Origin: an uncultured bacterium
GTDB lineage: Bacteria; Verrucomicrobiota; Kiritimatiellia; RFP12; UBA1067
DNA: 56,648 nt
NCBI GenBank assembly: GCA_902799715.1
Contig: CADCBS010000009.1
Span: 1 to 56,648 of the forward strand
Reading direction: 5' to 3'
Below are positions 15,853 to 15,952 of this stretch, piece by piece. The stretch's first letter is position 1. Each line of letters opens with the position of its first letter. Under the pieces are notes generated by a model. The model was not told the origin of the DNA. It worked only from the letters and a program-made list of their open reading frames with translations, and did not search any database. Both the position numbers and the translations under genes were made by a program.

Positions 15853-15899
15853 TTGACTAACGGGGGGGGGGGGGGGGGGGGGGGGGGGGGGATTATACT
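15853..15899 (+). promoter_or_regulatory. Probable phase-variable promoter: -35, 30-G tract, -10
   Basis: TTGACT (15853-15858) is followed by AAC, thirty consecutive G (15862-15891), AT and TATACT (15894-15899). As assembled, the spacer is 35 bp, far beyond the 16-18 bp optimum. A tract of about 12 G would restore 17 bp. Slipped-strand changes in homopolymer spacers switch promoters in several bacteria (for example the poly-C tract of Bordetella fim promoters), so this layout predicts on/off expression of the surface protein at 15953. Confidence 0.72.
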
Positions 15900-15952
15900 T
15901 TCTGCATCGCAAGTCTTATTATGCCAAAATTCGATACCGAAGGGGTGAGAAC

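Follow-up and report, generated by a model that had tools for sequence, protein, structure and literature searches.

A poly-G promoter spacer upstream of a predicted secreted protein belongs to a family of candidate phase-variable promoters in an uncultured bacterium

Introduction

Is a run of 30 guanines placed exactly between the -35 and -10 boxes of a promoter a genetic switch, a fixed promoter element, or an accident of sequence or assembly? The question is raised by the window analyzed here, a stretch of 56,648 nucleotides from an uncultured bacterium, in which TTGACT-AAC-G30-AT-TATACT is read directly at 15853-15899 of the forward strand, 5' of a gene for a secreted protein. The DnaB encoded in the window shares 51% identity with its counterpart in an uncultured Kiritimatiellaeota genome, a value inside the 47-58% span between families of the order, and 33-42% with other named genomes that were compared; this one gene likely places the bacterium in or near Kiritimatiellota. 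Its genome assembly comprises 2.55 Mb in 172 contigs and is 89.55% complete.

In Neisseria, slipped-strand synthesis is an established cause of phase variation through promoter spacing at porA, fetA and opc (PMC2791445). In tp0126 of Treponema pallidum, a poly-G tract lies between the -35 and -10 boxes and transcription is best at a total spacing of 17 (PMC7864442); further outer-membrane-protein promoters of this species carry poly-G tracts. The mechanism thus has precedents in meningococci and in the spirochaete that causes syphilis, and we found no report of it for the present lineage: the open-access literature yielded no paper on Kiritimatiell- and phase variation, subscription papers being outside the scope of the search.

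Results

The poly-G promoter and its genes

The features of the locus are listed in Table 1. On direct reading, the spacer is 35 bp as assembled and 12 G would bring it to 17 bp, so the coordinates and the spacer arithmetic of the initial annotation are correct. The G30 tract is the sole run of at least 10 G or C within the window, and overlapping G10 matches number 21 against 0.18 expected, a count that no shuffle reached. An automatic promoter scan called no promoter at this site because it demands a spacer of 16-18 bp; the miss fits a promoter that is OFF as assembled and is not evidence against a promoter. If the assembly is taken literally, a spacer of 35 bp lies well beyond the lengths that work, which would leave the promoter OFF.

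Table 1 Features of the window and of related G tracts in the same genome
Feature	Position or locus	Strand	Basis or remark
MutS	5725-8199	+	All five MutS Pfam domains
Upstream gene P0002	13209-15785		
Conserved dyad TTAG-N6-CTAA (TTAGCCTTGACTAA)	15847-15860	+	Overlaps -35 box; 18 genomic copies at no more than one mismatch
-35 box TTGACT	15853-15858	+	Read directly; aligned with 17 siblings
AAC between -35 box and G tract	15859-15861	+	Read directly
G30 homopolymer, presumed slippage tract, length uncertain	15862-15891	+	Siblings have G8-G13 at the equivalent place
AT between G tract and -10 box	15892-15893	+	Read directly
-10 box TATACT	15894-15899	+	Read directly; same or similar box in siblings
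Ribosome-binding-site-like AAGGGGTGAG	15940-15949	+	Read directly
Target gene, 1040-aa predicted secreted protein	15953-19075	+	ATG 15953 after AAGGGGTGAG; signal-like N-terminus
DUF3863/DUF3864 protein	19130-20488	+	Pfam E 2.8e-96; 54 bp 3' of target gene
Alpha-L-rhamnosidase-like gene	20533-23010	+	Bac_rhamnosid_C E 1.5e-9 on ORF 19981-23010
Long G tracts at N gaps	C26:15035-15107, C58:19260-19327, C67:4986-5010		
G14 ending a contig	C40:1-14		
Frame-switch loci	L071 (C31), L373 (C35), L379 (C57), L382 (C63), L389 (C103), L391 (C113), L393 (C129, two tracts)		

The large secreted protein annotated downstream is present, its secretion being predicted from the signal-like N-terminus. It has no match in Pfam or NCBIfam, and its N-terminus is shared with a paralogue under the G10 promoter of contig C43. 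No terminator-like site was found on the forward strand between the target gene and the DUF3863/DUF3864 gene, which is probably co-transcribed with it. The rhamnosidase-like gene, whose start was re-assigned from the sequence to an ATG past the DUF3863 stop, is possibly the third member, and a single operon of the three genes is plausible. The MutS reported for the same window is likewise encoded there with its full set of domains; it could influence tract stability and stands outside the switch proper.

A family of promoter cassettes in the same genome

The left flank of the tract, AATTAGCCTTGnCTAAC, recurs exactly or nearly so at five other G tracts of the genome. We searched the genome with the pattern TTAGCCTTGNCTAA, allowing one mismatch, and obtained 18 sites of the dyad TTAG(C/A)CTTGNCTAA over the -35 box, 9 per strand, while the reversed pattern used as a control gave 0. 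Sixteen of the 18 sites run directly into G8-G30 and then into a TATACT/TATCAT/TATAAT-like -10 box; the other two have no long G tract and carry ordinary spacers of 17 and 18 bp. The tract is G8-G13 in 15 of the 16 cassettes, with the window copy as the outlier. Spacers are mostly 16-19 bp, two are 21 bp, and one is ambiguous, measuring 15 bp to TATACG or 23 bp to TATCAT.

The first open reading frame behind nearly every cassette is large (most exceed 900 aa) and has a signal-like N-terminus. Several of the encoded proteins have common leaders (MASFASKRLFAPLAA, MNCKPDVETVVSRRAARACG) and the common ending GFYRIRLAVQ. Domain matches among them are few (DUF2341, laminin-G-like and GDPD), and three have weak matches to passenger-associated repeats. 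These proteins may be located at the cell surface.

Two further repeat arrangements were observed in this genome. Contig C48 (L376, 1418-1461 and 3820-3858) holds two double tracts, composed of poly-T, G10/G12, TTGACAAAACCyCTATTAAy and G8/G11, which do not fit the spacer model. A dispersed intergenic repeat, TTCATnCGCaCCGTAATCTC, often adjoins poly-T or poly-G tracts (for example at L074, L376, L371, L380 and L383).

Tract length and spacing among copies and relatives

Tract length differs between near-identical copies. The cassettes of contigs C10 (G8) and C122 (G10) are about 97% identical in both flanks, and the window copy (G30) matches the C43 copy (G10) at 90% of the 152 bp that follow the tract. 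A promoter shared by two species of a different genus has G9 in one and G10 in the other (G040, G036), each species being represented by one genome in all comparisons.

In 60 relatives, the pattern TTGAC-G8+-TANNNT gave 90 matches, against 1 for the reversed pattern and 22 for the version with a C tract. The -35/-10 distance has its mode at 17 (27 of 83 distinct sites) and is 16-18 at 53 of the 83. The initial annotation had proposed comparing tract lengths among relatives; across them the G run spans 8-14 and the spacing still peaks at 17. With a stricter pattern applied to a sample of the phylum, 6 of 30 genomes of the order match, versus 1 of 259 others. The arrangement known from porA and tp0126, a homopolymer between recognizable -35 and -10 boxes with length differences among near-identical copies, is therefore found here, and the boxes stand about 17 bp apart in siblings and relatives, with the window copy at 35.

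These numbers bear on the simplest objection, that poly-G arises by chance or as a sequencing artefact and is unrelated to promoters. Most of the roughly 69 tracts of at least eight G in the genome indeed belong to neither of the two families described here, and some are located at gaps. Such an origin is nevertheless scarcely credible given the empty reversed control for the dyad, the ratio of 90 to 1 in relatives and the spacing peak at 17; for the cassette family as a whole, it is refuted by the controls and that peak.

In two genomes of another family of the same order (G019, G014; loci L334-L345), we observed many promoters of the form TTGAC-N4-G9/10-TGG-TAnnnT. Their targets are short secreted proteins of about 215-230 aa that look PEP-CTERM-like by eye.

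Start-proximal G tracts as probable frame switches

At least eight further G8-G13 tracts of the same genome lie 25-28 bases 3' of an ATG (Table 1). In seven of the eight, the leader before the tract is MTK-x-x-K-x-S or close to it, and the second tract of contig C129 follows a different leader, MKNITDTIQ. Addition or loss of one G changes the length of the frame from 12-25 aa to at least 346 aa or back, and the open frame has a signal-like segment. Two of the eight are ON as assembled, near the one third expected for random frames. A genome of the same genus, G001, carries the same leader and start-proximal G tracts (L078, L079); the dyad family was not found in it. The frame family lends independent support to the use of G tracts as switches in this lineage.

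Start-proximal homopolymer frame switches occur, for example, in Campylobacter and Neisseria. Like those, the tracts described here lie just after the start codon and toggle the frame; unlike the poly-G promoters, such switches act on translation rather than on promoter spacing, and the leader is different.

The dyad and the role of the G-rich spacer

A shared regulator may be suspected from the dyad at the -35 box. As an alternative to slippage, the G-rich spacer could be an invariant element of a promoter that depends on a regulator, serving as a binding site or DNA-shape element, with length differences that reflect neutral drift. In favour of this reading, nearly every copy has its -35 box covered by a dyad, and the fourth -35 base differs from the consensus A in most cassettes. 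Moreover, the motif with G-rich spacers recurs in the sister genus (G021, G042), where some copies have an interrupted G tract (GGGGAGGGGGG, GGGGGGTGGGGGGG), so the G-rich spacer may matter apart from slippage. However, uninterrupted runs of at least eight G, which are inherently unstable, are present in 16 of the 18 copies, and the spacing of 16-21 covers a range that strongly alters the strength of sigma-70 promoters. In the frame family, a binding role would make no sense. We therefore consider a purely fixed spacer unlikely.

Reliability of the G30 count and of the junction

While the tract and its context, as described in the initial annotation, are borne out, the count of 30 is unsupported and is perhaps an assembly product. 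Every other tract of at least 24 in the assembly abuts an N gap (G24-N25-G24, G34-N18-G16 and G25-N13), one G14 ends a contig, and the 15 sibling tracts do not exceed 13 G; we accordingly trust the tract and its context and do not trust the number 30. G homopolymers are prone to sequencing errors. On balance, we lean towards a real tract of about 10-14 G whose length of 30 arose in assembly or sequencing, making the window copy an ordinary member of the phase-variable family. On the other side, there is no N at the window site, a slippage-prone tract can genuinely grow long, and both flanks match the family. An artefactual length is compatible with the promoter switch, as it touches the number 30 alone.

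Not only the length but conceivably also the join of the flanks may be a product of assembly. As cassettes have the left half and the G tract in common, a short-read assembler could have mis-joined two half-cassettes through the poly-G, in which case P0002 and the target gene would not be true neighbours. Orthologues of P0002 in G031 (83%) and G021 have different genes next to them, and no orthologous P0002/target junction was found in the relatives examined for synteny; adjacency across the tract is thereby neither confirmed nor refuted. No orphan half-cassette was present at the contig ends examined, and both halves fit the cassette family. A chimera is improbable in our view and would leave the promoter architecture unaffected either way.

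Poly-G spacers in other lineages

Among named genomes, the poly-G spacer pattern occurs in at least 120 stretches, many of them in uncultured gut Bacilli and Clostridia, Candidatus Ancillula and others. In some genomes such promoters number in the dozens and lie mostly 5' of proteins with signal- or membrane-anchor-like starts. This recurrence across phyla argues for function and against a novelty specific to one lineage.

Dozens of near-identical poly-G spacer promoters were seen in each of G063 (Candidatus Ancillula, L176 and others), G062 and G066 (both uncultured Bacilli). An example from these gut lineages is TTGACAAGC-Gn-TGCTATAAT, in which n is 9-15 and the spacing is 15-21 with a peak at 18. 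No paper on Ancillula and phase variation was found in the open-access literature, subscription papers again being outside the scope.

Discussion

Together, our results make it probable that the window promoter is a sigma-70-type promoter with a hypermutable poly-G spacer, switched by slippage, and one of at least 16 homologous cassettes that drive large secreted proteins. The phase-variable promoter first proposed from a single site is now supported by 16 sister promoters with dyad and G tract, by length differences among near-identical copies, by the spacing mode of 17 in relatives, by the excess of G over C tracts (90 to 22) and by secreted proteins downstream nearly everywhere. Promoter-spacing phase variation of the porA and tp0126 type is well supported by this anatomy, as far as sequence comparison can tell.

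We then propose a model for the switch. Slipped-strand synthesis would add or remove G and thereby widen or narrow the gap between the -35 and -10 boxes. At a spacing of about 17 bp, reached here with 12 G and with roughly 11-13 G tolerated, transcription would be ON, and at the assembled spacing of 35 bp the promoter would be OFF. Slippage within the population, with transcription depending on tract length, is what this model supposes. If the cassettes slip independently, the population would therefore contain many combinations of surface proteins.

In Mycoplasma hyorhinis, the vlp genes form a family, every member of which carries a homopolymer in the promoter spacer. The present family is alike in this respect; the vlp homopolymer is poly-A and the genes are clustered, whereas the cassettes described here are poly-G and scattered over the genome. 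We are not aware of any dyad shared at the -35 box by the poly-G promoters of T. pallidum. The tp0126 promoter itself is alike in its poly-G spacer and optimum of 17 and unrelated in sequence and lineage. The porA and fetA promoters similarly place a homopolymer between the boxes, need a spacing near 17 and control a surface protein (PMC2791445, PMC7864442); unlike the present family, each is a single locus and they share no dyad, while here at least 16 homologous cassettes, one of them assembled at G30, occur in an unrelated lineage.

It is tempting to speculate further, although we hold this broader picture to be somewhat less than an even bet, that an order of uncultured bacteria possesses a two-layer random switchboard for surface proteins, made up of cassettes and frame switches. 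In this picture a single regulator would recognize the dyad, and the expressed surface would be chosen jointly by a global signal and by slippage at individual loci. Unrelated gut lineages, among them Candidatus Ancillula and uncultured Bacilli, would have come to the same poly-G spacer design on their own, each genome with dozens of copies.

The at least 16 promoter loci and eight frame loci provide a ready list for read-out in existing metagenome reads. If the proposed switching is true, phase variation driven by slippage, for which most known examples come from pathogens, extends to an uncultured lineage. Cells of one strain would then differ in their surface proteins, which bears on phage attack, immune recognition and polymer binding. 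That unrelated gut lineages share the design suggests a strategy far more widespread than published work indicates.
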